From a virus, in IMG/VR virus record IMGVR_UViG_3300025120_000420, positions 1 to 27,575 of that record: 27,575 bases of DNA; one strand, given 5' to 3'. This document shows, piece after piece, positions 1,175-25,663 of this stretch (position 1 is its first letter; each line of letters begins with the position of its first letter). The notes beneath the pieces are model-generated. The model had not been told where the DNA came from, made no database searches, and worked only from the letters and a program-made list of their open reading frames with translations. A program made the position numbers and the translations under genes.

Positions 1175-1180
1175 GTGCTT

Positions 1181-1208
1181 ATTGTAACAGATTATGGAGA
1201 TTTGTCAA
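1181..1208 (-). promoter_or_regulatory. sigma70-like promoter, apparently leaderless, for uvsE
   Basis: TTGACA (1203-1208), a 16-base spacer and TACAAT (1181-1186) on the minus strand. Only six bases (AAGCAC) separate the -10 box from the ATG at 1174, so a typical start point would fall at or next to the start codon. No Shine-Dalgarno sequence is present. The element sits in the 35-base gap after the SGNH-like gene. Confidence 0.6.
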
Positions 1209-1209
1209 G

Positions 1210-1914
1210 TTAATTTGATCGGTTATGATTTATTTGGTCTTTTACAGACACCACCCAATCTAGGTAAACACTGTTGTGGAAATGGCATTTGTCATCTTGT
1301 AGACCGTTATGCTTGGCACAGTATGAATGTGGATCACTGTTAATCCAGTGTGTTTTATCTAAAAGATCAGGAAACTTTTCAACATGGCCATCATACATAT
1401 CTTGTTCTGGGGTTGCAGGATTAGTGATGTCGTAAAAAAATGTCCAGTTGTGTGGGATATTCTTTTGTTTCAAAAACCAAAGTGTGCTGGCCACTGATTG
1501 GATGCTTTCTTTTGCTACGTGTTGATATTCTTCATCGTTGAAGTAACAGGGCATAAAAATTTCATTTGTTCTGTCACTTCCTACCCAACTACCAACTTTT
1601 CCACCTGAACACAAATATCTTCGTTTGTAAGTTTTTACGCAGTAATCGTAATCTGGAATGGAATAATTATCATGAGCAGGTATGTCAAATCTTGCCAATC
1701 CAGTAAATTGTGCGTAAACGTAATCAACTTTGTTGTTTGAAATATAATCTATACAATTGCCTAGTATGAATTGATTTCCCACACCCCACCAAGATAAATT
1801 TACTATCTCGGCATCTTGGCCAAACACAACATCTTTCCAGATCTGATCTTTATTTGGATTTTGCCCATCACCTGCTAGGTTGCTACAACCGAGGAAAAGT
1901 ATTTTTTTAGTCAT
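1210..1914 (-). CDS. SGNH/GDSL-like hydrolase family protein
   Basis: A 234-aa protein resembling the SGNH hydrolase fold (esterase/lipase/acetyl-hydrolase type). It starts with a beta strand and nucleophile-elbow-like ILFLGCSNLAGDG (residues 5-17), has WWGVGNQFI near residue 42 (block III-like G.N) and ends with DDKCHFHNSVYLDWV, where the Asp and His could complete a triad. Block I is GCSN rather than classic GDS, so the call rests on the overall pattern. Substrate is unknown; polysaccharide or lipid deacetylation would be typical of the fold. Its ATG overlaps the end of the GroES-like gene by 8 bases, implying coupled translation. A second SGNH-like gene lies on the other side of that gene. 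Confidence 0.6.
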   Translation of the reverse strand: MTKKILFLGCSNLAGDGQNPNKDQIWKDVVFGQDAEIVNLSWWGVGNQFILGNCIDYISNNKVDYVYAQFTGLARFDIPAHDNYSIPDYDYCVKTYKRRYLCSGGKVGSWVGSDRTNEIFMPCYFNDEEYQHVAKESIQSVASTLWFLKQKNIPHNWTFFYDITNPATPEQDMYDGHVEKFPDLLDKTHWINSDPHSYCAKHNGLQDDKCHFHNSVYLDWVVSVKDQINHNRSN

Positions 1915-2350
1915 TGCCAGGTAGTTTGGTCATCTGTCGTGCACCACCTGTGTTGATGTACCCTGCCTTTTTGCTGTTGAAGTCTGGCTCGTCATCTGAT
2001 ACCAGCAAGATGTCATTCTCGTCGATCATCCTCACCTCAAGTTCCACACCGTTTTTCTGAACCTTGAAGCCTCTGCTCCATCTACCATGAGACACCATGA
2101 CCCACTCACCAACTTTTACATCTTCCTGTTGGTCACCTATGGCATAAACCTTGCCCCATCTTGGATGAATTCCGCCTTCTGATCCGTCGTCGTCCATCAT
2201 TATTATTCCACCAGCGGATTTCCTTTCACCAAAGTGCATGTCTGATACCAGTACTCTTTTTTTAAGTGGTTTTATATCGTTCTTTACGGTGTATTCTTTG
2301 CCACCGTGTGATCCAAAACCTTTTGCTTGTAAGTCTTCTAGTTGTCCCAT
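1907..2350 (-). CDS. GroES/gp31-like co-chaperonin
   Basis: A 147-aa protein with a GroES-type core. IKPLKKRVLVSDM (26-38) matches the first strand, the mobile loop region (37-52) ends SAGGIIMM, where GroES has SAGGIVL for binding GroEL, and GKVYAIGD plus VKVGEWVMVSHGR (79-90) match the later strands. The final core strand is IDENDILLVSDD (109-120). It is longer than GroES (about 97 aa), with about 25 extra residues at the N-terminus and a tail of about 27 residues. Like T4 gp31, such proteins replace GroES so that host GroEL can fold phage capsid protein. A TATAAT box sits 8 bases before the ATG and no Shine-Dalgarno sequence is visible. Confidence 0.85.
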   Translation of the reverse strand: MGQLEDLQAKGFGSHGGKEYTVKNDIKPLKKRVLVSDMHFGERKSAGGIIMMDDDGSEGGIHPRWGKVYAIGDQQEDVKVGEWVMVSHGRWSRGFKVQKNGVELEVRMIDENDILLVSDDEPDFNSKKAGYINTGGARQMTKLPGND

Positions 2351-2358
2351 ATGCTAAT

Positions 2359-2387
2359 ATTATATACTAAGTTTCGCTTTTATGCAA
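2359..2387 (-). promoter_or_regulatory. sigma70-like promoter, near-leaderless, for the GroES-like gene
   Basis: TTGCAT (2382-2387), a 17-base spacer and a perfect TATAAT (2359-2364) on the minus strand, then 8 bases to the ATG at 2350. The -35 box is weak but spacing is optimal. It overlaps the 3' end of the next upstream gene. It shares architecture with the promoters at 1181, 22905, 23330 and 25635. Confidence 0.5.
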
Positions 2388-3113: not shown

Positions 3114-3115
3114 TA

Positions 3116-3505: not shown

Positions 3506-3532
3506 AATATTAAACTCCTATATAATTACTTA

Positions 3533-4060
3533 TCATCTCAAAAACTCAGTGATATCTAAATTGTACAACAGTGGATTGATCTTGTGTACTCCTATCAAGA
3601 ATAAACAGAAACTGGCCACACTGGATCCCCTGCCCACACCCCAAACAATATTATTTGCTCTCAACGTGTCAACAAAGTAAATCAAGAACTGTAAAACACG
3701 TATGAATTGTTTCTTCTCAAACAGATCATATTCCATCTGCACTCGGAACTTCTCTTCATCGTTCTGACATTTGTCAAGCAACCACTGTAGGACATTTATT
3801 TGGTAATAACTCTCAGGCATGTGCCATTCGTCACAGTTCTGTTTGTCGAACTTCGCGGGTGTTGGCCTCTCTGGTAATGTATTGATCACAGGTAGATCTA
3901 TGCCCAACTCCCTGAGGCTTTTGGAATATTTGTCTATGTCGTCGAAGTAAAGTTTTGATATGTCAAAGTCCGGGTCTGTGTAAAGTAATTGAATGGCCTC
4001 CTCTTCCGAGAAGATTACATCACCGTGGTCATTTATCTTTTTTTTTATGTTTTCCGCCAT
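3533..4060 (-). CDS. DNA polymerase III alpha-like palm fragment protein
   Basis: A 175-aa protein. The N-terminal ~130 residues are acidic and helical. The C-terminal 40 residues contain NNIVWGVGRGSSVASFCL (about 136-153) then HKINPLLYNLDITEFLR. This resembles the family C polymerase (DnaE) palm segment 'VGPGRGS.AGSLV.Y.L.IT..DPL...L.FERFLN'. In DnaE the catalytic PDFDID motif follows directly, but here the protein stops at the equivalent of FERFL, so it cannot be a polymerase by itself. It may be a relic, a regulator or a partner protein. Its start overlaps the upstream gene by 32 bases in another frame, so the two are probably co-translated. The ORF itself is secure; the relationship is my own motif comparison. 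Confidence 0.7.
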   Translation of the reverse strand: MAENIKKKINDHGDVIFSEEEAIQLLYTDPDFDISKLYFDDIDKYSKSLRELGIDLPVINTLPERPTPAKFDKQNCDEWHMPESYYQINVLQWLLDKCQNDEEKFRVQMEYDLFEKKQFIRVLQFLIYFVDTLRANNIVWGVGRGSSVASFCLFLIGVHKINPLLYNLDITEFLR

Positions 4061-4670
4061 CTAAAACCTTTGGTTGGAATTCAAATATTTTAGCATGATA
4101 TTCGTGCTTCTTGTCAACAGGAATCTCTTGATTTTTCCAACTGAAATGTCCTGTGTATATTCCTTTGTCAAGTTCTTGGTCATATGTTGCCGTGTCTGCC
4201 CTCAGCCACCATGGATCAAATTTGCTGAACTTTGCTGAAAACCAATCGGGCCTATCTAACAGTATAAGCTCTTTGCTGTCTTTGTCAACCTTGTAGGTAA
4301 TACCATCACCCTGCCATGAACTCAATTCAATATTATTAATCACTATCTTGCTGTCAAGGATGCTGTTGGCCTTGCAGAAACACACCGCGGCCATGATCTG
4401 GTCGTATGGTGGCTTTGGCAATTCAACGAACCTGTTGGTGCTAGATTTTTTAAGTGTGTTATACAGTGGTTCATCCCTCCACGTTGTAATGGTGTTTGCG
4501 AAAACCTGTTCAAAAAGATTTTTCAGTCTCTCAAAGTATTCTGTCTGCTCCTTTAAACTTGCCGTGTGTGGAGTAAGTGATATGTTGAGACTATATTCAT
4601 TGGCGAACAGTTCGCCGTCCACTATGATTATTGATTTGAATTTTGTCTTCCAGGTAAATGTGTTTGACAT
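4029..4670 (-). CDS. conserved-looking protein of unknown function
   Basis: A 213-aa protein starting at the ATG at 4670 (MSNTFTWKTKFKSIII); the codon just before is TTG, so a start one codon longer is possible but less likely. The N-terminus looks like beta strands (KFKSIIIVDGELFANEYSLNISL), followed by a helical part with Phe/Leu heptads (about 40-65), then a Trp-rich region (SSWQGDG, DRPDW, DPWWLRAD). The C-terminus is Lys-rich. No domain was recognised. It overlaps the Pol III-like gene downstream by 32 bases and follows the 83-aa gene by about 12 bases, forming one transcription unit. Confidence 0.65.
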   Translation of the reverse strand: MSNTFTWKTKFKSIIIVDGELFANEYSLNISLTPHTASLKEQTEYFERLKNLFEQVFANTITTWRDEPLYNTLKKSSTNRFVELPKPPYDQIMAAVCFCKANSILDSKIVINNIELSSWQGDGITYKVDKDSKELILLDRPDWFSAKFSKFDPWWLRADTATYDQELDKGIYTGHFSWKNQEIPVDKKHEYHAKIFEFQPKVLDGGKHKKKDK

Positions 4671-4682
4671 CAAAACTATTTA

Positions 4683-4934: not shown

Positions 4935-4949
4935 TATACTCCTTAGTTA

Positions 4950-5513: not shown

Positions 5514-8026
5514 TATTGTATTCCTTTGTCTCTAAATTTAAGATATTTATCGTTGCTTCTCTCCACCTTTATAATTGTACCCGCTTGAGGCGTTTCTTTG
5601 GTAAAAGTGATCGTTGTTTGTTGAGTCGAGGTATTGTGAGAAAGTGTTATACCTAACTCATGATCAGCGGATCTCAGTGTGCCATCTGCAGTGAGATATG
5701 TTGGTTTAATATTGTTGTCAGCGGTGACTCCCTGCCCAACAAAAACAATGTTACTTCCTTCTTTGACAAGTATATCTTGCTCGTGTATCAGTTCGTCAAC
5801 AACGAAACTAGTTGAGGTTCCATCTGCAGTGAAAGTGTCCGTTGCCACCTTGCTGTTGCCTACAACATATCTGTCTATGTTGAATGCTATGTTCTTGTAA
5901 TTCAATATCTTATCCTCAATCCTTTTCTTGACCAATTCCGATTTTCCAGGCTTACAGTAACACACAGGTACAGCCTTCACATAGCCCAGTGGTGCTAGAT
6001 CACCCACCTGTGTTGTCTTCATCCATAACGGCAAGTAGTCGTATTCCTTATGTCCAAGGCTTTTCATCCTAAGCCTCATGTTGGCCACAGCATTTGGGAA
6101 CAGTGTTGTTACAAAATCTAAATCTGCAGATAATTGGTTTGCAAATCTTACTTTTGATCCTGATGCACTGAATGCCAGTCCACTTTGGTGGGTGAATTCA
6201 AACACCTCCATGTCTGCTGTTATGTCCACTGTGCTGACTGTTGGACCTAAAAGTGGTTTTCTCACAGAAGTTCCTATTGGTACATCTGCGCCGATGGCCA
6301 CACCATCTCCACCAACAAGATCGTCTACGATATCAAGATATACAATCTCATATTTTACAACACCGTCTTCTTTTGCAACAGCAGTCTTAAGATCTCCAAA
6401 GTACAAGGTCTTAGGGGCATGGTTCTTCTCCATCTGTTCTTGGAATGTTGTAAGTGTTTGTGCTTCTAGGCCTGCCATCAGCAACATGTCAGGCTTGACT
6501 TTCATACCAAAATTTTCGTCCTCGGATCTGAATATGTTATCCATGGAGTTGATGTTGGGATCCTGTGCCACATTGTAGAATATGTTTTGATCGATAAATG
6601 ATGTTGCATGTCCACGCATATTTCCGTACTCGACTTGTGTGTATGGAATATCTATGTTGATAGTGAATTCTTTGGACGTTCCCAAAGACTGGTATTGATC
6701 ACCAACGGTAGCAGTGAATGAGTACGCCCTTGTTGAATCAGTAAACTCGCTAGTGTCGATTGTACCTATCAAGTTTCCTTGCGTAGAAAGTGTTATGCCG
6801 GGTGGTAAAGATCCAGATGTTTTCTCATAACTTAAAACTCTGTTGTTCGATTCTGCCACTGCTTCTATCGAAAGTATACTAGGAATGCCTGCGGTCAATG
6901 TACCTATCACAGAAGGTGTGGTAAATGCGATTCCTAGGTCAATCTCGCCTATCACCTTCATGGTGAATGCTTGGTCAGTGAACACGTTCAATCCTGTTAC
7001 TATGAACCTGTTGGCTCTTACAGTGAAATTGTAAGTGACTTCAACTGCCGATTGCCTCGCAAGTTGACCGTACAGTTCTCCTGAGCTGATGTCTATGGCT
7101 ATGCCTGGTGGTAGGGATCCTGATTGTATAGAATATTCGAGGTCAGCCTGCAGTGGATCGAAGTCCTCCACATCTATCTTCACGACCAGGGCGTTATCGT
7201 GTCTGAATGTGCCAAGGTCTGAACCTGTCCTGAAGACAGGTCTCCTGTTTGCACTTAAATCCATGGTCAATGGTGTTCCGTCTATCTCTGTCTTGTCTAT
7301 CGTGATAGCAGTGTTTGAAACTCTCCAGAAGTCTGCTGAATATACGAAAATGCTGTTGTTCTGTTCGATAAAACTTGTTCCATCGGATACACGAACTATG
7401 AAGTCAAAATTTTTGCTGATACTTTTTGTGGTCACTGTCCTGTCGTATGTCCCGTCAAATTCGTCTTCGTCACCTGTTCCATCATATCCGCCACGCTTAC
7501 CAAATCTTTGATCGTCTGTCAGTTCGACTATTCCTGATATCAATCCTGATTTGCTCATCGTGACTCCTGGAGGCAACGACCCTGCTGTTATTTCATAAAC
7601 CAGTTTTTGTCCTGCTTCGGTGTCTTGGTCCGTGGCCTGTATCTGTAGCTCTACACTGGAACCGTCTATGACCCAGTAAAGTCCCACGCTGGTGCTGTCA
7701 TCTAGTAGTAGTTGTCCCGAGGCTGTTGTGAAAGTGGGAGTGTCCGCTCCCTGAACGTCTAAACTGAAAGTCCTGTCTGTGATAGCGGTACCGGCCGTGG
7801 CTCGCACGACGAAGGTGTAAAGAGTTCTTTTGGCAACCTCAGCCGGAGTACCTGTCAGTAAGCCATCTGTGGTGACCTGCATTCCTGCGGGTAGGCTCCC
7901 TGCTATCACGGAGTAAATGATGGCCGTTGAATCGCTGGTATTAGCCTCTAATTGAAGGCTAAATGCGATCTGCTCGTCTATAGTTGCAATTTTACCTGCT
8001 GTGGTTGTCCACACTGGTGTTGCCAT
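5513..8026 (-). CDS. large structural protein with four Ig-like (He_PIG-type) repeats
   Basis: An 837-aa protein. Four copies of the 'Y.I..GSLP(P/A)G......G.L.G' signature of putative Ig/cadherin-like domains occur at about residues 44, 150, 304 and 406; each domain spans roughly 90-130 residues. Residues ~460-700 form a different region, including FIDQNIFYNVAQDPNINSMD and a KYEIVYLDIVDDLVGGD strand. The last ~100 residues contain TFTADGTSTSFVVDE, similar to segments of marine phage virion proteins. Such Ig-domain proteins usually decorate the tail, baseplate or capsid and help adhesion. Shine-Dalgarno AAGGAG precedes the ATG at 8026, with GATAAATA further upstream. The exact virion position cannot be told from sequence. 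Confidence 0.8.
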   Translation of the reverse strand: MATPVWTTTAGKIATIDEQIAFSLQLEANTSDSTAIIYSVIAGSLPAGMQVTTDGLLTGTPAEVAKRTLYTFVVRATAGTAITDRTFSLDVQGADTPTFTTASGQLLLDDSTSVGLYWVIDGSSVELQIQATDQDTEAGQKLVYEITAGSLPPGVTMSKSGLISGIVELTDDQRFGKRGGYDGTGDEDEFDGTYDRTVTTKSISKNFDFIVRVSDGTSFIEQNNSIFVYSADFWRVSNTAITIDKTEIDGTPLTMDLSANRRPVFRTGSDLGTFRHDNALVVKIDVEDFDPLQADLEYSIQSGSLPPGIAIDISSGELYGQLARQSAVEVTYNFTVRANRFIVTGLNVFTDQAFTMKVIGEIDLGIAFTTPSVIGTLTAGIPSILSIEAVAESNNRVLSYEKTSGSLPPGITLSTQGNLIGTIDTSEFTDSTRAYSFTATVGDQYQSLGTSKEFTINIDIPYTQVEYGNMRGHATSFIDQNIFYNVAQDPNINSMDNIFRSEDENFGMKVKPDMLLMAGLEAQTLTTFQEQMEKNHAPKTLYFGDLKTAVAKEDGVVKYEIVYLDIVDDLVGGDGVAIGADVPIGTSVRKPLLGPTVSTVDITADMEVFEFTHQSGLAFSASGSKVRFANQLSADLDFVTTLFPNAVANMRLRMKSLGHKEYDYLPLWMKTTQVGDLAPLGYVKAVPVCYCKPGKSELVKKRIEDKILNYKNIAFNIDRYVVGNSKVATDTFTADGTSTSFVVDELIHEQDILVKEGSNIVFVGQGVTADNNIKPTYLTADGTLRSADHELGITLSHNTSTQQTTITFTKETPQAGTIIKVERSNDKYLKFRDKGIQ
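5544..5551 (-). promoter_or_regulatory. possible T4-late-like promoter box (GATAAATA)
   Basis: GATAAATA on the minus strand, 30 bases before the ATG at 5513, with an AAGGA Shine-Dalgarno sequence between. It matches the ATAAATA core of T4-like late promoters. It lies inside the last codons of the 837-aa gene (Asp-Lys-Tyr), so coding chance cannot be excluded. Confidence 0.35.
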
Positions 8027-8046
8027 TACTTTACTCCTTACAAGGA

Positions 8047-8054
8047 TATTTATC
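8047..8054 (-). promoter_or_regulatory. possible T4-late-like promoter box (GATAAATA)
   Basis: GATAAATA on the minus strand, 20 bases before the ATG at 8026, followed by an AAGGAG Shine-Dalgarno sequence. The TAA within it is also the stop of the 52-codon ORF just upstream. The same octamer precedes the gene starting at 5513. Confidence 0.45.
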
Positions 8055-8208: not shown

Positions 8209-8240
8209 TAGTGTCGTTTTTGACAGTGTGGAAGTGTGTA

Positions 8241-9865: not shown

Positions 9866-12508
9866 TTATAGGTCTATCAACACTCTTTGGAATTTGAATT
9901 GACAACTGTCATCAGAGATGTTTGTTGCCAACAGCCTTACATTACCGTCGTCAATGTCTGCTGTGAATGTGCATAGTGGCCCTGTGTGTGAAGTTGTAGA
10001 ACCAAACACAGTCAAGTAGGCCTCGATTGTGCTGTCAGCACTTGGTCCATGTATAAGGTTGGCCTCTACTATCTCAAATCTGCCATTTGTTGAATCTGTT
10101 ATTGAAAGGAAATACTTGGCACTCCTGTAAGTGCCTGATGCCCAACTGTCTACCAGTGATGTGGCCGAAGTTGCCACTGTGGCTGTGTTGTCTCCGATCT
10201 CTGAGTGATTCAGTGTTGATGGTGACGACAGCGTGATGAAACCCAGATTGCCCGAACCGTCCGTTTTTAATACTTGGCCCGATGATCCGTCGGTTAATGG
10301 GAAACCAAATCCGCTGATTATCACTCTGCCCGAGCCGTTTCCTGTCAACTCGAGGTTGGAGTTGGATGCATTTGTCGAGACAGTGTTGCCGTTTATGGTT
10401 ACTCCGTCTATGGTGAATGAATTGGTAGCGGTCACGCTGGTGAAAGATCCTGCCGCTGGTGTTGTTGCACCTATCACGGTGTTGTCTATTGTTCCACTGT
10501 TGATGTCTGCCTTTGCCATAACCACCTGGCCTGTGCCTGCAGGTGCAATCACAAGGTCTGAATTCGATACAGTTGTTCTGATCTCGTTGTCACTTATGTT
10601 GATGTTTGAGTCAACAGTCAAGTTCGCTATGATAACGTTTCCTGTTCCACCTGGAGTTAAATTAATATCTGCGTTAGAACTGGAACTGATGGTATTGTCA
10701 TTAAGTGTGAGGTTGTCGATTGTGATTCCACCGCCACCGAATGTTGTTGCACCGGTCACAGTAAGTGCTCCGAGAGTTGTCAGTCCACTGACGTTCAAGG
10801 TACCTGTTGTGGTCAAGTTTTCATTTCCAAAGTCTATTTCGCCGGAAGAATCAGTTATTGATCCTCCTCCTAGGACAAGGGTTCCAGCAGTCACGGTGCC
10901 TGTAGTTGATAAGTTTTCGTTTCCGAAACTGATGGCACCTGATGAATCGGTTATTGATCCATTCGCGAGTGTTAGGTTTCCTATCGTAGACCCGGTACCA
11001 CTGTTGATTGTACCTGTTGAGGTCAAGTTTTCATTGCCAAAACTTATTGAACCACTTGAATCAGTGATCGATCCACTCGCAAGTGTCACATTACCAACCA
11101 CAAGTGTACCTGTTGTGGACAAGTTTTCGTTTCCAAAACTTATTGCTCCACCTGAGTCCGTTATTGATCCATTTGCCAGTGTAAGGTTACCGATCGTAGA
11201 CCCGGTACCACTGTTGATAGTGCCCGTTGATGTTAGATTCTCATTGCCAAAACTTATGGCACCTGATGAATCTACTATGGAACCACTTGAAATTGTTACA
11301 TTGCCAACGTCTAGTGTACCTGTCGTGGTTAGATTTTCATTGCCAAAACTTATTGCTCCACTTGAGTCAGTTATTGATCCATTTCCCAGTGTAAGGTTAC
11401 CGATTGTTGATCCTGTGCCACTGTTGATTGTACCCGTTGATGTTAGGTTTTCATTGCCAAAACTTATTGCTCCACTTGAATCTACTATGGAACCACTTGA
11501 CAAGGTTACGTTACCAACCACCAGTTGACCTGTAGTGGACAAGTTCTCGTTTCCAAAACTAATTGCTCCACTTGAATCGGTTATTGATCCATTCGCGAGT
11601 GTCAGGTTACCGATTGTGGATCCTGTGGCACTGTTGATTGTGCCTGTTGATGTAAGATTTTCATTTCCAAAACTTATGGCACCTGATGAATCTACTATGG
11701 AACCACTAGAAAGTGTGACATTGCCAACCACCAGTTGACCTGTAGTGGACAAGTTCTCGTTTCCGAAACTAATTGCTCCACTTGAGTCAGTGATTGATCC
11801 ATTTGACAGTGTAAGATTGCCCAGTGTTGATCCTGTTGCCGCTGATATTGTGCCTGTTGTGGACAAGTTCTCATCATTGAAAGTTATGGCACCACTTGAA
11901 TCTGTTATCGATCCATTGGCCAGTGTTAGGTTGCCCAAGGTTGAACCTGTGGCCGCCGATATAGTTCCTGTGGTTGTTAGGTTCTCGTTGCCGAAAGTTA
12001 TGGCACCACTTGAATCTGTTATTGATCCGTTTGCCAGTGTAAGGTTACCGATCGTGGTTCCTGAACCTGCTGTGATGGCACCTAGGAATGTTGTTGTACC
12101 AGACACGTTTATCGATCCATCAACTATCAGTCCGTCGTTGATGTTAATTGTGGTTGAGTCTGTTGAACTCAGTGTTGTGCCTTTGATCTGAATGGCACCG
12201 AATACCACGTTCCCAGTGCCGGCCGGTTTGATGTTAATGTCCTCGTTTGATCTTGTGCCTTCGATGTTGTTGTCATTGATCCTGAAGGCTGGGAACAGCA
12301 CGCCACCTGTGCCAGCGGGTTGGAAAACTAGATCTTCATTGGATCTTGTTGCTGATATTTCATTGCCAACAAAGGATATATCACCAGCCGATAATGGTGA
12401 CAGATACAACTCTGTGAAATTTTCATTCACTTTGTTCATTGCGACTCGTAAATTATCGCCTGTTCCGTCGTTTGCGTTTGATCCTATGTTTAGTGTCTGC
12501 TGAGCCAT
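9866..12508 (-). CDS. repeat-rich tail-fibre-like protein (880 aa, 12 tandem repeats)
   Basis: N-terminal module LNIGSNANDGTGDNLRVAMN, then KVNENFTELY (6-35), two 'SNEDL.F.PAGTG.V.F' units (about 56-107) and a strand TININDGLIVDGSINVSGTT. Residues ~156-575 are 12 tandem copies of 'L.LANGSITDSSGAISFGNENL..TGT', mostly alternating 38- and 32-residue spacing. After two more 'SNADINLTPGGTG' units, the protein ends with one globular beta domain of about 100 residues (SWASGTYRSAKYFLSI to FKFQRVLIDL). This is the build of a phage fibre: attachment module, repetitive shaft, terminal receptor-binding or trimerisation head. It begins only two bases after the 1229-aa gene ends. The terminal head resembles each of the four heads of that paralogue. 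Confidence 0.82.
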   Translation of the reverse strand: MAQQTLNIGSNANDGTGDNLRVAMNKVNENFTELYLSPLSAGDISFVGNEISATRSNEDLVFQPAGTGGVLFPAFRINDNNIEGTRSNEDINIKPAGTGNVVFGAIQIKGTTLSSTDSTTININDGLIVDGSINVSGTTTFLGAITAGSGTTIGNLTLANGSITDSSGAITFGNENLTTTGTISAATGSTLGNLTLANGSITDSSGAITFNDENLSTTGTISAATGSTLGNLTLSNGSITDSSGAISFGNENLSTTGQLVVGNVTLSSGSIVDSSGAISFGNENLTSTGTINSATGSTIGNLTLANGSITDSSGAISFGNENLSTTGQLVVGNVTLSSGSIVDSSGAISFGNENLTSTGTINSGTGSTIGNLTLGNGSITDSSGAISFGNENLTTTGTLDVGNVTISSGSIVDSSGAISFGNENLTSTGTINSGTGSTIGNLTLANGSITDSGGAISFGNENLSTTGTLVVGNVTLASGSITDSSGSISFGNENLTSTGTINSGTGSTIGNLTLANGSITDSSGAISFGNENLSTTGTVTAGTLVLGGGSITDSSGEIDFGNENLTTTGTLNVSGLTTLGALTVTGATTFGGGGITIDNLTLNDNTISSSSNADINLTPGGTGNVIIANLTVDSNINISDNEIRTTVSNSDLVIAPAGTGQVVMAKADINSGTIDNTVIGATTPAAGSFTSVTATNSFTIDGVTINGNTVSTNASNSNLELTGNGSGRVIISGFGFPLTDGSSGQVLKTDGSGNLGFITLSSPSTLNHSEIGDNTATVATSATSLVDSWASGTYRSAKYFLSITDSTNGRFEIVEANLIHGPSADSTIEAYLTVFGSTTSHTGPLCTFTADIDDGNVRLLATNISDDSCQFKFQRVLIDL
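10784..12043 (-). repeat. 12 tandem coding repeats in the 880-aa protein
   Basis: Twelve in-frame copies of a 32- or 38-codon unit centred on NGSITDSSGAISFGNENL. Spacing is 38, 38, then mostly alternating 32/38, giving a superperiod near 70 codons (210 bases). DNA identity between units is high enough for recombination-based expansion. Boundaries are approximate. Confidence 0.85.
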
Positions 12509-12510
12509 CT

Positions 12511-15500: not shown

Positions 15501-16200
15501 AAGTTAGGTTGCCAAGAGTGGAACCAGATTCGGCTGATATTGTTCCTGTTGTGGAAAGGTTTTCATTTCCAAAACTTATTGCACCCGATGAATCTGTTAT
15601 GGAGCCATCCGCGAATGTGATATTGCCAAGACTTGATCCGGTCTCCGCTGACAGGGTTCCTGTCGTTGTGAGATTCTCATTGCCGAAACTGATCGCTCCG
15701 GATGAATTGGTTATCGATCCATTCGCGAAGGTGAAATCTGCGACCACACTGGGAGATACAAATGTCTGTGCACCACTGAACGTGAAGCCACCGCTGGTTG
15801 AAAAGTTCCCATCAACTACTAGGTTCTCGTTGATGTTCACAATTGATGAATCTGATGAACTTATTGTTGTTCCGCCGAAACCGATTCCCTCTATGACCAA
15901 CCTACCGGCACCATTTGCCCGCAAAAATAGATCCTCGTTTGATCTTGTGCCTTCGATGTTGTTGTCATTGAGCGTGATGGCCGGAAAAACAATGTTTCCC
16001 GTGCCAGATGGTTTGAATACTATGTCCGCGTTGGACTGCGTTGTGCTGATTTCATTCTGGATAATACCCAGTGATGACTGGGCGAATGGCTTCAAATATA
16101 ACTCAGTGAAGTTGTTGTTGATCTTGATGCCGGCTCTCCTTATGGTATCACCCGTACCATCATCGGCCAAAGCGCCTAAGTTTATCAGTTCCTGTGCCAT
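12511..16200 (-). CDS. very large repeat-rich tail-fibre-like protein (1229 aa, 12 tandem repeats, four C-terminal heads)
   Basis: The longest gene in the window. N-terminal module INLGALADDGTGDTIRRAGI, then KINNNFTELY (6-35), 'SNADIVFKPSGTGNIVF' and 'SNEDLFLRANGAGRLV' units, then 12 tandem 'NGSITDSSGAISFGNENL' repeats (~156-584) alternating 38 and ~34 residues. A linker of 'SNADLNLSPGGTG' and 'GGNLLFLPSGSGN' units follows. From about residue 805 to the end come four related ~100-residue beta domains with the pattern 'YR.A.Y.V.V...... E....VH.GT..F.T.Y....... I.L...I..G.V.L'. This is a shaft plus a chain of heads, probably a long tail fibre or adhesin; the role is inferred. The ATG at 16200 sits downstream of an ACTAAATA box. 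Confidence 0.85.
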   Translation of the reverse strand: MAQELINLGALADDGTGDTIRRAGIKINNNFTELYLKPFAQSSLGIIQNEISTTQSNADIVFKPSGTGNIVFPAITLNDNNIEGTRSNEDLFLRANGAGRLVIEGIGFGGTTISSSDSSIVNINENLVVDGNFSTSGGFTFSGAQTFVSPSVVADFTFANGSITNSSGAISFGNENLTTTGTLSAETGSSLGNITFADGSITDSSGAISFGNENLSTTGTISAESGSTLGNLTFADGSITDSSGAISFSNENLSTTGTSFAINSTLTVANGSITDSSGAISFGNENVTTTGTIARGTGSTIGNLTLGNGSITDSSGAISFGNENLTTTATSIAINSTLTVGNGSITDSTGAITFGDENVTTTGTISRATGSTIGNLTLANGSITDSSGAISFGNENLTTTATSSQIGTLTVANGSITDSSGAISFGNENVTTSGTIARATGSTIGNLTLANGSITDSSGAISFGNENLTTSSTSIAINSTLTVANGSITDSTGAITFGNENVTTTGTIARGSGSTIGNLTLANGSITDSSGAISFGNENLTTSASSMAIGSTMTAGSGAITDTTGAISFGNDNLTTTGTLDVSGLSTLGSLTTVSGATSFAGSTTIDNLTFNDNIISTSSNADLNLSPGGTGVVNVSNLTIDSSINLTDNVIKVTKSNDDFVLSGNGTGSVQISKIDMNQGTVDNTVIGGTTPAAGDFTTVSFTVPNINAGNVNITDNKIKSTDTGGNLLFLPSGSGNVLINGFTFPNSMVAGRQIKTDANKVLSTVAPPSFVVTDTDVQDGRTTISFANRTDIDHVTAAGGHDRIESSVAVQDNFLTSQYDSAFYLAVNRDDASDEFEVTKHSVVHNNSNVFITSTINARTGTNNHVTTTVDINAGLVRLLGTGSSPENSVSYYRIGLGDDDSTGYSGEDEAAVVINTDVDSASEVIDSWAHASFRGAKYYISVNNASKTELMNCEATLVHNGTDAFVSTYNIVNTGNNDLITLTAAINGSNVELKAAGLETNLRVHAYRIRLADNEADRSSTNINVIGNVTVSSSTTTLDTFSTGTYQAAHYVIVSHNAAEGHSAICEAAVVSDGTNAFVTQYGLTSTKGTDQIILSVGHAGSTTTLSATSTSGGSTKVNAYRVNLARGAGTSTAVATLDSISATAYRAVYYLVQVTDSVGNNFESFQVQSVHDGTNVFTSVYGNVGNQVNLISVSGDLDSGNLRLRGTISNLNDHEIVVLRRIIKV
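12514..13790 (-). repeat. four tandem ~100-residue beta domains at the C-terminus of the 1229-aa protein
   Basis: Related domains begin near VQDNFLTSQYDSAFYL, IDSWAHASFRGAKYYISV, LDTFSTGTYQAAHYVIVS and LDSISATAYRAVYYLVQV. Each continues to a strand such as VSYYRIGL, VHAYRIRL, VNAYRVNL and IVVLRRIIKV. They are diverged at residue level, so duplication is old. The 880-aa paralogue has one copy. Confidence 0.7.
14449..15735 (-). repeat. 12 tandem coding repeats in the 1229-aa protein
   Basis: Twelve in-frame copies of the NGSITDSSGAISFGNENL unit. Longer units (38 codons, with G(S/T)GSTIGN linkers) mostly alternate with shorter units (33-34 codons, with SIAINST-type linkers), giving a superperiod near 72 codons. 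Boundaries are approximate. Confidence 0.85.
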
Positions 16201-18126: not shown

Positions 18127-18444
18127 TTATCTCTCATTTCTGCCGCTGTTTTGTATTCCCACCGACATCCAGAATCTCGTTGCATCTCTCTTCTTTTCAA
18201 AACTCATGTATGCGTTCTGGTCCTCCCAGTTATGACGTATAGGATCATACAAGTCTGTTTGTTCGAACCACCATCCCCACTTGCCTTGGCAGTTTGTCTG
18301 GCACCATGATATGCATTCACCCATGATACCGTTAGAGTTCATGTCTATGTTGTGTTCGAACTGTTTCTCATATCCGCAATCCTCAGGAATCTCATCCATT
18401 GCTGAATTGTTTCTCTTAACTTTAACTTTTCCGTAACTTCTCAT
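18127..18444 (-). CDS. conserved-looking small protein, unknown function
   Basis: A 105-aa protein. Basic N-terminus MRSYGKVKVKRNN, then CGYEKQFEHNIDMN, a Cys/Trp-rich centre (GECISWCQTNCQGKWGWWFE) and a C-terminus AYMSFEKKRDATRFWMSVG that looks like a small alpha/beta fold packing on Trp and Phe residues. Four cysteines could bind metal, but spacing (C..C...C) is not a textbook motif. The start overlaps the stop of the radical SAM gene (TAATG), so it is co-translated with it. It could be a partner of that enzyme; no family was recognised. Confidence 0.7.
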   Translation of the reverse strand: MRSYGKVKVKRNNSAMDEIPEDCGYEKQFEHNIDMNSNGIMGECISWCQTNCQGKWGWWFEQTDLYDPIRHNWEDQNAYMSFEKKRDATRFWMSVGIQNSGRNER

Positions 18445-19541
18445 TAATTTGTATAGTATCCTATTCCGTATTTTTTATCAACCACATTTTTATTACATTT
18501 TTGTGAACACTCCACGAAAGTGTTGTTGTTAAAACTATCGAAGAGTGTTTCCCAGATATCATCATTTAGGATCTCTTCTATAGACCTATTACTTTTTGCG
18601 TTTACAAGATGTTTATTTTTAACAAAAAAACTGTCCTCCCACTGTATTACCTTACCATTGTGTTCTAAACTTTTATAAGGGAAACTGGTCCAACTACAAG
18701 GAAATATTGTTCCTTCAGCATTCATGTACAATCCTCTATTTCCTATCAAGCACATGGGCACAATGTCGCCTGTAAATTTTTTTTTTATTTCGTTAAACTT
18801 CTTGTAATTTGTTTTCATATAATTTAATCTGACGGGTTTCCTACTAGATAGATTTACAACCTGCCTTTCATATCGGTGAGTTTTGCTAATAAATTTATTA
18901 CTGGGTTCTAAGGGATCATGATCCCCACCATACGCATCGCCATACTTAGATCCAAATTTCGTGCTATGGGTGAGCTGTAATTGATCACACCCTTGATCTT
19001 TGGCCAACTGTTTGATCAAGTCTAACTTGTCTTCGTTGAATTTAAATATTATTGTGGCCCAATTTACAAACATTTCGCTTTGTTGAGCACAAATCCTCAT
19101 TCCGGTCATGATGCTTTGCCAATGACTGTTGATCCTATAAATGTCATTTGACTGCTGATCATACCCATCAACACTGAAATTGATTGTGTCGCGTTTGTTC
19201 GACACAGCGGCAAATTCTTTCCACCATTTTTCAGTTTTGTAACTGCCATTTGTTATGGTGAATATCTGTATCTCAGGATTGTAGGATTTAATGTACCTGA
19301 TTATATCTATATAATCTTTAGCATATATCGGATCGCCAACATCACCGCACATTGTAAATCGCTGAGTGTGTTGTAATATTTTATGCGAGAACACCCTCTT
19401 GAATTCCTCAAGCGAAATCTCTTTCTGCATCCAACTGATATCTGGATGTTCTTGCCTCGGACATCTTGGACATTTTAGGCTACACTTTGAACTTGGTTCG
19501 ACGTGCCAATGATACAGTTGCCATCCGTACCTATTCAACAT
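18444..19541 (-). CDS. radical SAM protein with SPASM/twitch-like C-terminus (copy 1)
   Basis: A 365-aa protein. The radical SAM cluster motif CxxxCxxC is at C20, C24 and C27 (SSKCSLKCPRCPR), followed by MCGDVGDP and ITNGSY in core-barrel positions and NFSVDGYD (about 121-128). The C-terminal third has MCLIGNRGLYMNAEGTIFPC (C264, C282) and later ECSQKC, the pattern of SPASM/twitch auxiliary Fe-S domains. Such enzymes modify peptides, sugars or cofactors; substrate is unknown. The ATG at 19541 is preceded by GGAG and overlaps the SDR gene end by 11 bases. The sequence is AT-rich and Lys/Asn-rich like the SDR gene, so the pair may have been acquired together. Confidence 0.88.
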   Translation of the reverse strand: MLNRYGWQLYHWHVEPSSKCSLKCPRCPRQEHPDISWMQKEISLEEFKRVFSHKILQHTQRFTMCGDVGDPIYAKDYIDIIRYIKSYNPEIQIFTITNGSYKTEKWWKEFAAVSNKRDTINFSVDGYDQQSNDIYRINSHWQSIMTGMRICAQQSEMFVNWATIIFKFNEDKLDLIKQLAKDQGCDQLQLTHSTKFGSKYGDAYGGDHDPLEPSNKFISKTHRYERQVVNLSSRKPVRLNYMKTNYKKFNEIKKKFTGDIVPMCLIGNRGLYMNAEGTIFPCSWTSFPYKSLEHNGKVIQWEDSFFVKNKHLVNAKSNRSIEEILNDDIWETLFDSFNNNTFVECSQKCNKNVVDKKYGIGYYTN

Positions 19542-22264: not shown

Positions 22265-22335
22265 CTTTTCTCCTTGCGTTGATGACTTGCAGAGTGTTTA
22301 TAGAGGGATGAAAGTCTTTTAGTCCTCTCGATCAT
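22261..22335 (-). CDS. possible 24-aa basic mini-ORF between two genes
   Basis: An ATG at 22335 that shares the A of the upstream stop (TGATG) opens a 24-codon frame: MIERTKRLSSLYKHSASHQR then KEKR. Its TGA overlaps the PTPS ATG (ATGA). Both junctions are classic coupling overlaps, and the frame spans the whole 70-base gap. The AAGGAG Shine-Dalgarno sequence of the PTPS gene is inside its last codons. It may simply relay ribosomes or may be a real basic peptide. Short length makes chance possible. Confidence 0.4.
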   Translation of the reverse strand: MIERTKRLSSLYKHSASHQRKEKR

Positions 22336-22589
22336 CAGTTCAATTTTTTGTCAATCTTCTGATCTAGGTCAAACTGGAACGCAACGTCTCTGATGCGTTC
22401 TGTCAGTTCGTTTGGTATATTTAACTCACCGTCTATAATACTTTTTAAAAAATGTATCAACACAGTGAACTCACTTCTGTCAGCCACTGTCTCGGGATCA
22501 ATGCCGTGTTGTTCCATTGCGTTAAGCATGGCCTCTGACACGTCCACCAGTGCCTTGATGCTTGTTGAGTGTTTGTCAAAATGTGCCAT
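22335..22589 (-). CDS. small helical acidic protein, unknown function
   Basis: An 84-aa protein: MAHFDKHSTSIKALVDVSEA, then MLNAMEQHGIDPETVADRSE, FTVLIHFLKSIIDGELNIPN and a Lys-rich end. Entirely helical by pattern, with Leu/Ile/Val heptads. The start shares its A with the stop of the Sm-like gene (TAATG), so both are coupled. No domain was recognised. Confidence 0.7.
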   Translation of the reverse strand: MAHFDKHSTSIKALVDVSEAMLNAMEQHGIDPETVADRSEFTVLIHFLKSIIDGELNIPNELTERIRDVAFQFDLDQKIDKKLN

Positions 22590-22897
22590 TATGTGATAAT
22601 CTTGGGTTTTGCAGGAACCTCAATCTTGCTGAACACCCTGTTGTACTCATCAGCGATCTTGTCATTGATGTGTGCAATGGATATCAACTTGTCCGTTGCT
22701 ATGTTGAACGGTTGGTCCTGTCTAGCAGTGGAGAAAAATGTACCAAATGCCAATCCCTGCGGACCATTCATTAGTACAAGTGCCTTCTCAATACTGACGT
22801 ATTGTGAGTCGGTCCTGCTAAGATATTTTGCGATGACCTCTTCCCCTGAAGTCAATTTTAGAGTAACTAGATCTCCATCTTTTATTTTATCAAACAT
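22589..22897 (-). CDS. Sm-like (LSm/Hfq-fold-like) small protein
   Basis: A 102-aa protein. The start FDKIKDGDLVTLKLTSGEEV, then IAKYLSRTDSQYVSIEKALVL, resembles an Sm fold: helix, then 'G..V.L.L..G....G.. ......V....A'. The following MNGPQGLAFGTFFSTARQDQ would be the loop to Sm2. The C-terminal ~25 residues (HINDKIADEYNRVFSKIEVP) form a helix and tail. Sm-like proteins bind RNA and form rings, so a role in phage RNA control is possible, but the similarity is only structural-pattern level. A TATAAT box ends 7 bases before the ATG at 22897. This start has no Shine-Dalgarno sequence. Confidence 0.65.
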   Translation of the reverse strand: MFDKIKDGDLVTLKLTSGEEVIAKYLSRTDSQYVSIEKALVLMNGPQGLAFGTFFSTARQDQPFNIATDKLISIAHINDKIADEYNRVFSKIEVPAKPKIIT

Positions 22898-22904
22898 ATG
22901 TCTT

Positions 22905-22932
22905 ATTATAAACTATCCTACGAGTTTGTCAA
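22905..22932 (-). promoter_or_regulatory. sigma70-like promoter, apparently leaderless, for the Sm-like gene
   Basis: TTGACA (22927-22932), a 16-base spacer and perfect TATAAT (22905-22910) on the minus strand, then 7 bases to the ATG at 22897. Both hexamers match consensus at all 12 positions. The -35 box lies in the last codons of the glycosylase gene. No Shine-Dalgarno sequence follows. Confidence 0.68.
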
Positions 22933-23323
22933 TGTATTTTCTCAACTCCTTGTCCTGTACGTTGGGAGGAATGTTATTGAAAAAGAATATCTGGTAACTG
23001 TCAGATCCATACTTGCCAATGCCGTGCAACTCGCTGGCTTCTTTCCTGTCCCACGTTAGGTACTGTTCTGTCATCTTCCTTATTCTCTTTGATCGAACTG
23101 CCCACATGCCTAGAGGCTTCAACATATCCTGTTGCGTTTTTAACCTACCACGCAGATACGCTTCGGGGTTAGGATATCTAGCAAATAATTTTGGTAAGAC
23201 AATTTTCACATGCTTACGATATGTGAGATTGAGGCACATCACGCCCACCATGTGCTTCCACCTTTTGTGAGGCGCCTTAAGTTGTTGTTGCACCATCAAG
23301 TGATCTACCATTGGTTTACTCAT
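22913..23323 (-). CDS. MBD4-like HhH-GPD DNA glycosylase
   Basis: A 136-aa protein resembling the catalytic domain of MBD4, a mismatch-specific thymine/uracil glycosylase. LNLTYRKHVKIVLPKLFARY, then PNPEAYLRGRLKTQQDMLKP and LGMWAVRSKRIRKMTEQYLT, align with the MBD4 helices. ASELHGIGKYGSDSYQIFF (96-114) matches the MBD4 helix-hairpin-helix ELHGIGKYGNDSYRIF almost residue for residue. D124 in VQDKELRKYIDK falls where MBD4 has its catalytic Asp (PEDHKLNKYHDW). It lacks the Fe-S cluster loop of endonuclease III. It would excise U or T from G mismatches (deaminated C or 5-methylC), protecting phage DNA. The start lacks a Shine-Dalgarno sequence and is preceded by a sigma70-like promoter. Confidence 0.82.
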   Translation of the reverse strand: MSKPMVDHLMVQQQLKAPHKRWKHMVGVMCLNLTYRKHVKIVLPKLFARYPNPEAYLRGRLKTQQDMLKPLGMWAVRSKRIRKMTEQYLTWDRKEASELHGIGKYGSDSYQIFFFNNIPPNVQDKELRKYIDKLVG

Positions 23324-23329
23324 ACAACA

Positions 23330-23357
23330 ATTTTATATTATTTTACTTTTTTGTCAA
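23330..23357 (-). promoter_or_regulatory. sigma70-like promoter, apparently leaderless, for the glycosylase gene
   Basis: TTGACA (23352-23357), a 16-base AT-rich spacer and TAAAAT (23330-23335) on the minus strand, with 6 bases (TGTTGT) before the ATG at 23323. No Shine-Dalgarno sequence. The -35 box lies at the end of the upstream GNGESR gene. Confidence 0.6.
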
Positions 23358-23984
23358 CTGTTTATGGATCCATTTGGCCAAACCTTCGTAGGTATCTTGA
23401 AAAACATTTTTATGTTCTTTCCATTCGTCTGGCATTTTCCAACCTTCTTGGTTGACTATGATCCATCTGCACTCTGAGTGTTGGAATAATTTATTAAATT
23501 GGTATATCCAGTATCTTGGATCAACTGGTCTTTTTATGTAAGTGTAGCCCTTTGAACCCTTGTATATATTATTGACATTTTCAGGTTTGTTTTCTTTGCC
23601 TATCCCCCAGAGATCCATCCCCACTAGAAATATTGCTTTGGGTTTGAAACTGATGCCTACTAGAGCGGCAAATTGTCCAGTGCCCCAGTGGAAGGGATCG
23701 TCCTGTCTTTTGTCCCCATCGTAGGGCAGGTCAGGCACTTTCTTTACATTAGGCCAATATGCAAATTGTTGGTACCAATTTTCTCTTGTGAAGATTGTGG
23801 TATTTTTACCACATGTGTTTGCGGCCTCCTGACACATATGCCTGTCGCAGGCAACCACATATTCTAAATTATGATCCCGAAACAATGCATTACAACCAAC
23901 CATCGTTGTCACGTTTTTCAATGGAGTCAGATCGAATCCTCTCCTGCTTTCACCGTTGCCTATTACACTTACAAACTTGGTCAT
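23343..23984 (-). CDS. GNGESR-motif Rossmann-like protein (copy 2)
   Basis: A 213-aa paralogue of the protein at 17040-17783. Shared pieces in the same order: VSVIGNGESRRGFDLTPLK, MVGCNALFRDH, GTGQFAALVG (for GSGCSAVVMAAESG), FLVGMDLWG (for VIMAFDIMG), NNIYKGS and late aromatic strands. It lacks part of the middle insert present in copy 1. No Shine-Dalgarno sequence; the 34-aa ORF upstream ends four bases before its ATG, suggesting coupling. Function is unknown, possibly glycosyltransferase-like or nucleotide-binding. Confidence 0.72.
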   Translation of the reverse strand: MTKFVSVIGNGESRRGFDLTPLKNVTTMVGCNALFRDHNLEYVVACDRHMCQEAANTCGKNTTIFTRENWYQQFAYWPNVKKVPDLPYDGDKRQDDPFHWGTGQFAALVGISFKPKAIFLVGMDLWGIGKENKPENVNNIYKGSKGYTYIKRPVDPRYWIYQFNKLFQHSECRWIIVNQEGWKMPDEWKEHKNVFQDTYEGLAKWIHKQLTKK

Positions 23985-23988
23985 AAAC

Positions 23989-24093
23989 TTATTTAATCAC
24001 CCCGTTAAACTGCTTTAGAGCTACATACAGTGCTGGTAAAAACAAAGTTGGAACAGTTGCACATTCTACTGATTTCCGTTGATTAAATGCCAT
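23989..24093 (-). CDS. possible 34-aa hydrophobic mini-protein
   Basis: The gap between two genes contains ATG 24093 to TAA 23989: MAFNQRKSVECATVPTLFLP then ALYVALKQFNGVIK. A polar head precedes a hydrophobic stretch (ATVPTLFLPALYVAL, about 12-26), short for a membrane span but plausible for peripheral insertion. It overlaps the end of the 108-aa gene by 28 bases in another frame and ends four bases before the GNGESR gene. Shine-Dalgarno signal is weak. It may be real because it fills the gap exactly. Confidence 0.45.
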   Translation of the reverse strand: MAFNQRKSVECATVPTLFLPALYVALKQFNGVIK

Positions 24094-24392
24094 ACGGTGA
24101 GATACTTGTCCCAGGCCTTTTGCAGTGTAGGGTACTTTCTCCTCAGTGCGATGGCCTCTGCATTTACCATTTCCGCCTCTTCGTATGCCTGTTCTTCGTC
24201 CTTGGCCTGCTGTGATTGTTCCACCAAGACACGGTCACCGTTTGGTAATTGTTCATACACTGTCTCACCACCGTCAGGTGAAACATATATGGGATTGATC
24301 CTTCTTACTTTCTTTTTCATGATAGGAAAATTGCATATTCCATCAGTCTTGTTTTCCTTGTCCATGTGTGTCACCCTCTGAATAATATTCAT
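24066..24392 (-). CDS. small protein of unknown function
   Basis: A 108-aa frame. The likely conserved part starts at MKKKVRRINPIYVSPDGGET then VYEQLPNGDRVLVEQSQQA, followed by a Glu/Ala-rich helix (DEEQAYEEAEMVNAEAIA) and LRRKYPTLQKAWDKYLTVWH. Start is uncertain: 24392 has AGGAG nine bases upstream, 24365 has AGAGG nine bases upstream, and 24320 has none but avoids overlapping the HIT gene. No domain was recognised. The YVSPDGGETVYEQ pattern looks like a small beta sheet; the rest is helical. Confidence 0.65.
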   Translation of the reverse strand: MNIIQRVTHMDKENKTDGICNFPIMKKKVRRINPIYVSPDGGETVYEQLPNGDRVLVEQSQQAKDEEQAYEEAEMVNAEAIALRRKYPTLQKAWDKYLTVWHLINGNQ

Positions 24393-24780
24393 AGTGGTCC
24401 GCTCCTGGGTGTGCGTGTCTCATTCCGCCTATCTTCTTGGCGTCACCCTCGTGCCTGGGTATGAAATGTATGTGTGGCCACATGATTGTCTGCCCTGCCG
24501 GTTTCCCCATGTTCATGCCGATGTTGAATCCGTCTATCTCTCCTGCCTTGATCTTTTCATTTCCGTAGTCATAGGCCATGCCGTAGGATCTGCCCACGAA
24601 GTGTGCGTTTTTCTCCTTGGGTATGAAAAGTTTGTGTCCTTTAACACAAGGATATCTGTCATTGAAAACGAAAGTAAAGTCTGACTCCATGATGGGTGAG
24701 TCATTGCCCATCCACACGCTCTCATCTACGCTGTCAACTGGTTCGTATGCTTTCTTGTAGATAGATTTTTTTGATTGCAT
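24343..24780 (-). CDS. HIT-family protein with an altered histidine triad
   Basis: A 145-aa protein. FVFNDRYPCVKGHKLFIPKE (about 37-56) is the typical HIT strand and 'GH.LV.PK' region, and MGKPAGQTIMWPHIHFIPRH (91-110) is the active-site strand. In Fhit/Hint proteins this reads HxHxH; here the first His is Trp (W101), while H103 (nucleophile position) and H105 remain. HIT proteins hydrolyse nucleotide adducts such as Ap4A or AMP-amides. The changed residue may lower or alter activity. The C-terminal ~35 residues are His/Gly/Asp-rich. It overlaps the gene upstream by 47 bases and the gene downstream by 50. Confidence 0.85.
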   Translation of the reverse strand: MQSKKSIYKKAYEPVDSVDESVWMGNDSPIMESDFTFVFNDRYPCVKGHKLFIPKEKNAHFVGRSYGMAYDYGNEKIKAGEIDGFNIGMNMGKPAGQTIMWPHIHFIPRHEGDAKKIGGMRHAHPGADHYEYYSEGDTHGQGKQD

Positions 24781-25102
24781 TTGTTTTGATAATTCCTACT
24801 CTTATATTACTAGAATTTGGTCTGTGTTGCAATCTAATTTTTTCCCAGTGCTTGGTTTTTGTCACCGATGGATTGTATTCCAAGACATTCAATAAATTGA
24901 CCAATGCCTTTCTTACTTTCTCCGCACCGCCGTGCTTTTTACAGGTGTCTGATCTGCCAACGTCAACTATTGTGTCGTTTACTTTTATCTTGTACACACA
25001 TGGCAGTCGGATCCATTTAGTGACAGGATCTTTTCTATGTGTTATTTTATAATCTTTTACTGTGTATAGGTCTTCTATGTTGAACCACTTAATATCTGAC
25101 AT
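24734..25102 (-). CDS. protein of unknown function, possibly GIY-YIG-like
   Basis: A 122-aa basic protein. LPCVYKIKVNDTIVDVGRSD (33-52) is reminiscent of the first two strands of GIY-YIG nucleases (G(I/V)Y.I......YVG.S), followed by a Lys/Arg-rich helix (KKHGGAEKVRKALVNLL). The Glu and Arg that complete the catalytic site were not identified, so a nuclease is only a suggestion. It overlaps the DEDDh exonuclease by 14 bases upstream and the HIT gene by 47 bases downstream, so it belongs to the same operon. Confidence 0.62.
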   Translation of the reverse strand: MSDIKWFNIEDLYTVKDYKITHRKDPVTKWIRLPCVYKIKVNDTIVDVGRSDTCKKHGGAEKVRKALVNLLNVLEYNPSVTKTKHWEKIRLQHRPNSSNIRVGIIKTNAIKKIYLQESIRTS

Positions 25103-25628
25103 TTTTTATTCCCAACTGCTTGTACACCTTTTGTACTTTCCTTGCTTGGAAATAGCAATCTTCGAGAGCATTGTGAAGTCCTGTTCTTTTTTCATTTGGA
25201 TCACGAGGCACTAGAGCAAAAAGTGTTCTTGAATCTCTTATCTGCCAGTACTGCCAGGGTTGTGGGTGTCCTAACTGTGTGTATAGATTCTGTAGTATAG
25301 CATAGTCGAACAATGGACCTTGGCACCAGAACACGTCCACACCAACACTCCATTTGTTTACTGTCTTTATCATGGCATCCAGTGATATCCTGTCCTTGTC
25401 TCCCAAGGCTTCTTCCATAATTTCTGGATCCTGCCGTCCCCACCAGTCCAAGGTATCTTGCATGACATCTCTGCCCATCTCGGTCTGTGAGTCCACGTCC
25501 ACTCGGAAATACATGCCCTGTGCGGGTTCTACGTTTGTGTAGGGATCAAACTTCACACCACCCACTGTCAGTATAGTGGCATTGGGATTGGTAGATAAAG
25601 TTTCCAGATCTATCATAGCATGTATCAT
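25089..25628 (-). CDS. DEDDh 3'-5' exonuclease (DnaQ-like, T4 DexA-like)
   Basis: A 179-aa protein with all five catalytic residues in order: MIDLET (D7, E9), WCQGPLFDYAIL (D108) and GLHNALEDCYFQA (H152, D157), the ExoIII motif of DEDDh exonucleases. The compact size and strand SPNA-like 'LSTNPNATILTVGGVKFDP' match the small exonuclease/exoribonuclease branch that includes T4 DexA-type enzymes. It would trim single-stranded DNA or RNA 3' ends. A sigma70-like promoter ends 6 bases before the ATG at 25628, with no Shine-Dalgarno sequence. The first gene of a dense operon (HIT and others follow). Confidence 0.87.
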   Translation of the reverse strand: MIHAMIDLETLSTNPNATILTVGGVKFDPYTNVEPAQGMYFRVDVDSQTEMGRDVMQDTLDWWGRQDPEIMEEALGDKDRISLDAMIKTVNKWSVGVDVFWCQGPLFDYAILQNLYTQLGHPQPWQYWQIRDSRTLFALVPRDPNEKRTGLHNALEDCYFQARKVQKVYKQLGIKNVRY

Positions 25629-25634
25629 GTTGTT

Positions 25635-25663
25635 ATAATACTATGGAATTGTGGTAATGTCAA
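25635..25663 (-). promoter_or_regulatory. sigma70-like promoter, apparently leaderless, for the exonuclease operon
   Basis: TTGACA (25658-25663), a 17-base spacer and TATTAT (25635-25640) on the minus strand, then 6 bases (AACAAC) to the ATG at 25628. The -35 box begins immediately after the upstream gene's stop codon, so the whole 35-base gap equals the promoter. Confidence 0.68.

Follow-up and report, generated by a model that had tools for sequence, protein, structure and literature searches.

Sigma70-type promoters set against start codons predict leaderless mRNAs in an aquatic lineage related to T4

In a fragment of an uncultured T4-like myovirus, genes for enzymes and other proteins carry TTGACA- and TATAAT-type boxes that end 6–8 nt before the start codon, an arrangement that recurs in related contigs. 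Judging from sequence conservation and spacing, these are very probably true host-sigma70 promoters, and each gene would be transcribed into its own leaderless mRNA starting at the A of the AUG or 1–2 nt beside it. The window, by which we mean the whole stretch of DNA analyzed, is a 27,575-base IMG/VR record that carries nearly all of its genes on the minus strand and encodes baseplate and fibre proteins together with UvdE, a GroES-like protein, and an exonuclease. Genes are named below by the position of their start codon, and d is the number of nucleotides between a promoter box and the ATG.

Promoters in front of five window genes

The initial annotation had proposed such promoters for five genes, and a base-by-base check bore this out for 1174, 22897, 23323, and 25628 (Table 1). 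For 2350, the −10 box is perfect, but the −35 box matches at only 3 of 6 positions, and the standard promoter scan missed this site. Its orthologs have a TTGACG −35 and a d of mostly 8–9, and we regard 2350 as the weak member of the set. At 22897, the −35 box falls inside the 3′ end of the neighboring upstream gene. In all five genes, the ATG is the first possible start of the open reading frame, and, as had been claimed, none (0/5) is preceded by a Shine-Dalgarno (SD) sequence. The description of the set as enzyme and repair genes stood in part: UvdE is a firm match and 25628 encodes a DEDD-type exonuclease, whereas 23323 shows only a sub-threshold HhH-GPD similarity, 2350 is GroES-like, and the function of 22897 is unknown.

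Table 1 Promoter boxes and genes of the window (d, nucleotides between box and ATG)
Feature	Positions	Boxes and start codon	Strand	Match or conservation
UvdE promoter, TTGACA-16-TACAAT-6-ATG	1175..1208	−35 1208-1203; −10 1186-1181; ATG 1174	-	
GroES-like gene promoter, weak member, TTGCAT, TATAAT-8-ATG	2351..2387	−35 2387-2382; −10 2364-2359; ATG 2350	-	
phrog_527 gene promoter, perfect 12/12, TTGACA-16-TATAAT-7-ATG	22898..22932	−35 22932-22927; −10 22910-22905; ATG 22897	-	
HhH-GPD-like gene promoter, TTGACA-16-TAAAAT-6-ATG	23324..23357	−35 23357-23352; −10 23335-23330; ATG 23323	-	
Exonuclease promoter, TTGACA-17-TATTAT-6-ATG	25629..25663	−35 25663-25658; −10 25640-25635; ATG 25628	-	
Possible late-type leaderless box, TAAATA-6-ATG	4671..4682	box 4682-4677; ATG 4670	-	
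Late-type box, leadered SD gene	5544..5549	ATG 5513, d = 30	-	TAAATA 25/25, SD-like 21/25 orthologs
Late-type box, leadered SD structural gene	8047..8052	ATG 8026, d = 20	-	TAAATA 33/33, SD-like 32/33 orthologs
TAAATA-5-ATG, predicted leaderless late gene	23985..23995	box 23995-23990; ATG 23984	-	
TAAATA-5-ATG, radical SAM gene	26822..26832	box 26832-26827; ATG 26821	-	
TAAATA-5-ATG	27079..27089	box 27089-27084; ATG 27078	-	
UV damage endonuclease UvdE, 346 aa, predicted leaderless	134..1174		-	Pfam PF03851 E 2.4e-30; PHROG 8420
GroES-like co-chaperonin, 147 aa	1907..2350		-	Pfam Cpn10 E 1.3e-7
phrog_527 protein, function unknown, 102 aa, predicted leaderless	22589..22897		-	
136-aa protein, HhH-GPD (base-excision glycosylase-like), predicted leaderless	22913..23323		-	E 0.0019, below Pfam cut-off
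3′-5′ exonuclease, Rv2179c-like/DEDD, predicted leaderless	25089..25628		-	Pfam PF16473 E 7.7e-34; PHROG 255

Conservation and start-site signature

Scanning IMG/VR with four window proteins yielded more than 250 loci, and the predicted leaderless arrangement is conserved across ~100 related phage contigs. Ortholog upstream regions keep both hexamers, TTGACA and TATAAT, and the distance separating them from the ATG while the spacer and flanks vary, and boxes and spacing persist even where the neighboring upstream gene is another one. Counted on unique upstream regions with d of 4–9, the promoter was found in 85/85 orthologs of 22897 (including L097, L125, L126, and L140, which have a different upstream gene) and in 80/81 of 23323. 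For UvdE at 1174, it was present in 26/27 orthologs with ≥75% identity and in 26/44 at 50–75%; for the exonuclease at 25628, in 59/77 close orthologs, the remaining quarter or so having different coding or intergenic DNA upstream; and for 2350, at a laxer threshold, in 18/18. When all 32 window genes were treated alike, the five named genes had the promoter in a fraction of 0.74–1.0 of their orthologs and every other gene in 0–0.19. Because the UvdE relatives G003, G009, and G002 mix leadered and leaderless-type sigma70 promoters, we assign the unmixed pattern to the nearer lineage, comprising the window, G006, G013, and G001.

We analyzed the geometry of these promoters at non-redundant sites matching at least 11 of the 12 consensus bases, before ATGs that open an open reading frame in related IMG/VR contigs. 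The distance d was 5 at 78 sites, 6 at 286, 7 at 33, 8 at 17, 9 at 7, and 10 at none, so that exactly 6 nt separated box and ATG at 286 of the 418 sites with d of 4–8. The spacer between the hexamers was 16 nt in 260/414 sites and 17 nt in 146/414; TTGACA and TATAAT hexamers with a 16–18 nt spacer, as defines a host sigma70 promoter, are thus present. Transcription from sigma70 promoters usually starts ~7 nt beyond the −10 box, and a peak at d = 6 would therefore place +1 on the A of the ATG. At 95% of sites (n = 418), a T or C preceded the ATG, compared with 36% for ATGs at d of 12–49; a start of transcription on that A would predict just such a pyrimidine–A initiator.

Start codons at d of 5–8 were enriched for ATG alone (369 seen versus 54 expected, 7-fold; GTG, 14 versus 49; TTG, 43 versus 47), as expected for leaderless translation, and all 171 mapped leaderless mRNAs of Sinorhizobium meliloti likewise begin with AUG (PMC3616915). 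An SD match of at least 5 nt preceded 0/55 genes with such promoters and 27–43% of other genes. The definition of bacterial TA-led leaderless genes comprises a −10-like box ~10–12 bp upstream, no SD, and an AUG start (PMC3160421), and all three are found here. Folding energy in the first 40 nt of RNA showed no clear or consistent difference. Spacing, initiator, AUG restriction, lack of SD sequences, and a geometry shared with lambda cI strongly support, as a prediction, the earlier proposal that transcription starts at or beside the ATG.

Late-type boxes and distribution among phages

The initial annotation had also assigned ATAAATA boxes to structural genes and SD sequences to other genes, and both assignments hold at 5513 and 8026, whose orthologs retain the two signals (Table 1). 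This layout, a box followed by an SD leader, is that of T4 late genes. The initial annotation's link of leaderlessness to an early sigma70 class alone did not survive, as the late-type boxes at 23984, 26821, and 27078 are placed in the same way. TAAATA-N4-7-ATG occurs in 73/85 orthologs of 23984, with T at −1 in 72/73; the box is kept in 15/25 orthologs of 26821, with C or T at −1 in 15/15, and in 46/69 of 27078, with T or C at −1 in 41/46. At 4670, 43% of orthologs have TAAATA within 45 nt.

Late-type boxes at d of 4–7 occur in large excess genome-wide in the relatives G006, G013, G001, and G002, and the Pelagibacter (SAR11) phage HTVC008M has 10 where 0.8 are expected, with d = 5 in nine cases; nine leaderless-type late starts in this phage, at 6280, 7562, 16007 (minus strand), 18916 (minus strand), 19456, 31132, 49760, 75559, and 142360, match those annotated in its record. 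Counts of boxes at d = 5 are 9 versus 1 in a control for HTVC008M and 8 versus 1 for a second SAR11 phage, Mosig. Given ATAAATA boxes 5 nt before the ATG in the window, its relatives, and SAR11 phages, predicted leaderlessness is not confined to the sigma70 class; it is therefore a general option of the lineage, and of the late genes of SAR11 phages, rather than something that marks the early class only. HTVC008M has no leaderless sigma70 class (1 site), and HTVC008M and Mosig belong to a different family; portal and gp23 were not detected in the window lineage. T4, KVP40, S-PM2, P-SSM2, and P-RSM4 also combine host sigma70-type with ATAAATA-type late boxes. In these phages, however, the boxes lie 15–39 nt before the ATG, leaving a leader, and practically never at 4–8 nt; late-type boxes at d of 4–7 were absent or at chance numbers.

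The pattern TTGAC-N16-19-TATAAT-N5-8-ATG occurred 44 times in 14 lineage contigs (1.03 Mb), compared with 7 times when the ATG was shifted to 22–25 nt. Across 4.0 Mb from 17 cultured phages, among them T4, KVP40, cyanophages, 121Q, RaK2, Atu_ph07, Phosso, and HTVC008M, it occurred 5 times versus 17 in the control, and the leaderless sigma70 pattern is absent from them. At least 21 families of three or more members bear leaderless-type sigma70 promoters, some of which are likely chance matches; recognizable members are a clamp loader, a sliding-clamp-like protein, UvdE, the exonuclease, QueD, QueE, DnaJ, and GroES. Because the recognizable genes serve replication, repair, and metabolism, early timing of this class is plausible.

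The lineage DNA polymerase is 42–51% identical to those of the jumbo phages Phosso, Atu_ph07, Vibrio 2.275.O, and 121Q. The Gp23 major capsid protein (PF07068), by which membership of the Straboviridae or Kyanoviridae is judged, gave no match in ten long relatives, whose contigs may be incomplete, and was detected in T4 and HTVC008M. Probing genome contigs for a host with the DNA polymerase and a conserved promoter string gave no match. Que genes are common to the lineage and Far-T4 phages (PMC4360716), which we record as a lead only.

Alternative readings, mechanism, and known systems

Promoter-like strings in the window only slightly exceed those in shuffled sequence (34 versus 27 and 40 versus 32 in two scans), as they would if chance or AT-rich composition dropped them near ATGs at random. 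The strongest sites nevertheless concentrate on gene starts with one spacing. On both strands of the whole window, only six sites match at least 11 of 12 bases, and four of these lie on the gene starts 1174, 22897, 23323, and 25628. Four sites 4–9 nt from the 32 gene starts compare with 0.021 expected (Poisson P = 7.8e-9; P = 1.7e-5 for the window when any ATG opening at least 40 codons is counted), and related contigs gave P = 4e-13 (G006), 6e-15 (G013), and 2e-14 (G001), in tests that assume independence; nor are the ortholog counts phylogenetically independent. Sites are also kept in hundreds of orthologs despite diverging flanks. We rejected random placement, which conservation and spacing rule out and to which we leave a very small probability. 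A true start codon farther downstream, with an ordinary leader and the promoter-adjacent ATG unused, draws on internal ATGs in some genes, e.g., at exonuclease codon 5. Yet codons 2–14 of three families vary chiefly at third positions and are therefore translated (at 22897, variability by codon position is 0.08/0.03/0.23, coding from codon 2), enrichment at d of 5–8 is limited to ATG, and internal ATGs have no conserved SD. This reading is very improbable, and it was rejected on the third-position variation and the ATG-only enrichment.

Very short leaders of 1–5 nt, with genome compaction squeezing promoters against genes and translation proceeding by a leadered, non-SD route, are unlikely but deserve more weight. 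The range of d among orthologs (5–9), the longer distances of the GroES members, and the overlap of promoters with upstream genes fit such leaders; against them, d peaks sharply at 6 and a T/C–A initiator lies at the start codon, both of which favor +1 at the A, and HTVC008M and T4 are equally compact, yet their sigma70 promoters are not so placed. Under leaderless initiation, the RNA polymerase holoenzyme would bind TTGACA/TATAAT and start transcription ~7 nt past the −10 box, at a pyrimidine–A initiator that doubles as the start codon. The ribosome would then recognize the 5′-terminal AUG directly without an SD, through 70S or another form of entry. In the same genomes, some late promoters of the T4 type, with ATAAATA ending 5 nt ahead of the ATG, would use the same device, while other structural genes appear to retain SD leaders. 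The 5′ ends of the sigma70-class mRNAs are predicted from sequence; start-site choice shifted by 1–3 nt may produce very short leaders, and read-through from upstream genes could add leadered transcripts.

The lambda cI mRNA is established as leaderless (PMC3160421, PMC9031893), and its PRM promoter has the same geometry (TAGATT-6-ATG, T at −1, no SD). It differs in serving one repressor gene of a temperate phage from weak boxes, whereas the window lineage, of T4-like phages, has near-consensus boxes before several enzyme genes per genome. Bacterial TA-led genes (PMC3160421) and the leaderless genes of S. meliloti (PMC3616915) share a −10 box ~10–12 bp before the start, transcription starting at the AUG, and AUG only. 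Those are cellular genes; here, a phage lineage has both early-type and late-type promoters so placed. Phage transcripts have been said in passing to be often leaderless (PMC5312081, citing Brock 2008). Literature searches found no leaderless early class for T4-like phages, cyanophages, or jumbo phages.

To our knowledge, the known examples of leaderless phage mRNAs are chiefly those of single regulatory genes, e.g., lambda cI, while the conserved class predicted here spans genes for many enzymes of uncultured phages that are abundant. We tentatively suggest, at somewhat less than even chance, that this T4-related aquatic lineage uses leaderless initiation genome-wide, in its sigma70 and late classes (the latter also in cultured SAR11 phages), perhaps because host ribosomes favor 5′-terminal AUGs or because such initiation survives phage-induced changes in initiation factors. 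The parallel late-promoter class reaches the cultured HTVC008M, so that laboratory work can address the question directly. Gene callers that presume SD sequences or leaders will mis-call such starts, and the predicted arrangement bears on how compact marine phage genomes merge promoter with start codon.

Mixed sigma70 promoters in UvdE-bearing relatives

In the UvdE-bearing relatives G003, G009 and G002, sigma70 promoters of leaderless and leadered type were mixed, and both modes therefore coexist within a single genome. Leadered promoters, with 10-59 nt between the -10 box and the ATG, numbered 14, 12 and 15, respectively, versus ~1 expected.

Additional genes in the window and in G001

Further window features
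Feature	Position	Strand	Remark
Stand-alone 175-aa protein	3533-4060	-	phrog_11127; match to bacterial-type DNA polymerase III alpha
Long fibre-like gene	9866-12508	-	adjacent to next; common repeat family phrog_36164
Long fibre-like gene	12511-16200	-	as above
Radical SAM gene	18444-19541	-	first of two in one 27-kb phage fragment
Radical SAM gene	25664-26821	-	second

The phrog_11127 match is limited to the GxGRGSSVxSF region, and the same phage has a T4-type polymerase. This protein is conserved; its copy in the related contig G001 (82728) carries a leaderless-type promoter, as do G001 homologs of QueD and QueE (3959 and 95266), which possibly serve deazaguanine DNA modification.

Late-type boxes at start codons

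ATAAATA boxes lie exactly 5 nt upstream of the ATG at window genes 23984, 26821 and 27078, and in the pelagiphage HTVC008M. Late genes with boxes in this position form a class predicted to be leaderless, and cultured SAR11 phages share this ATAAATA-5 nt-ATG class with the window phage.
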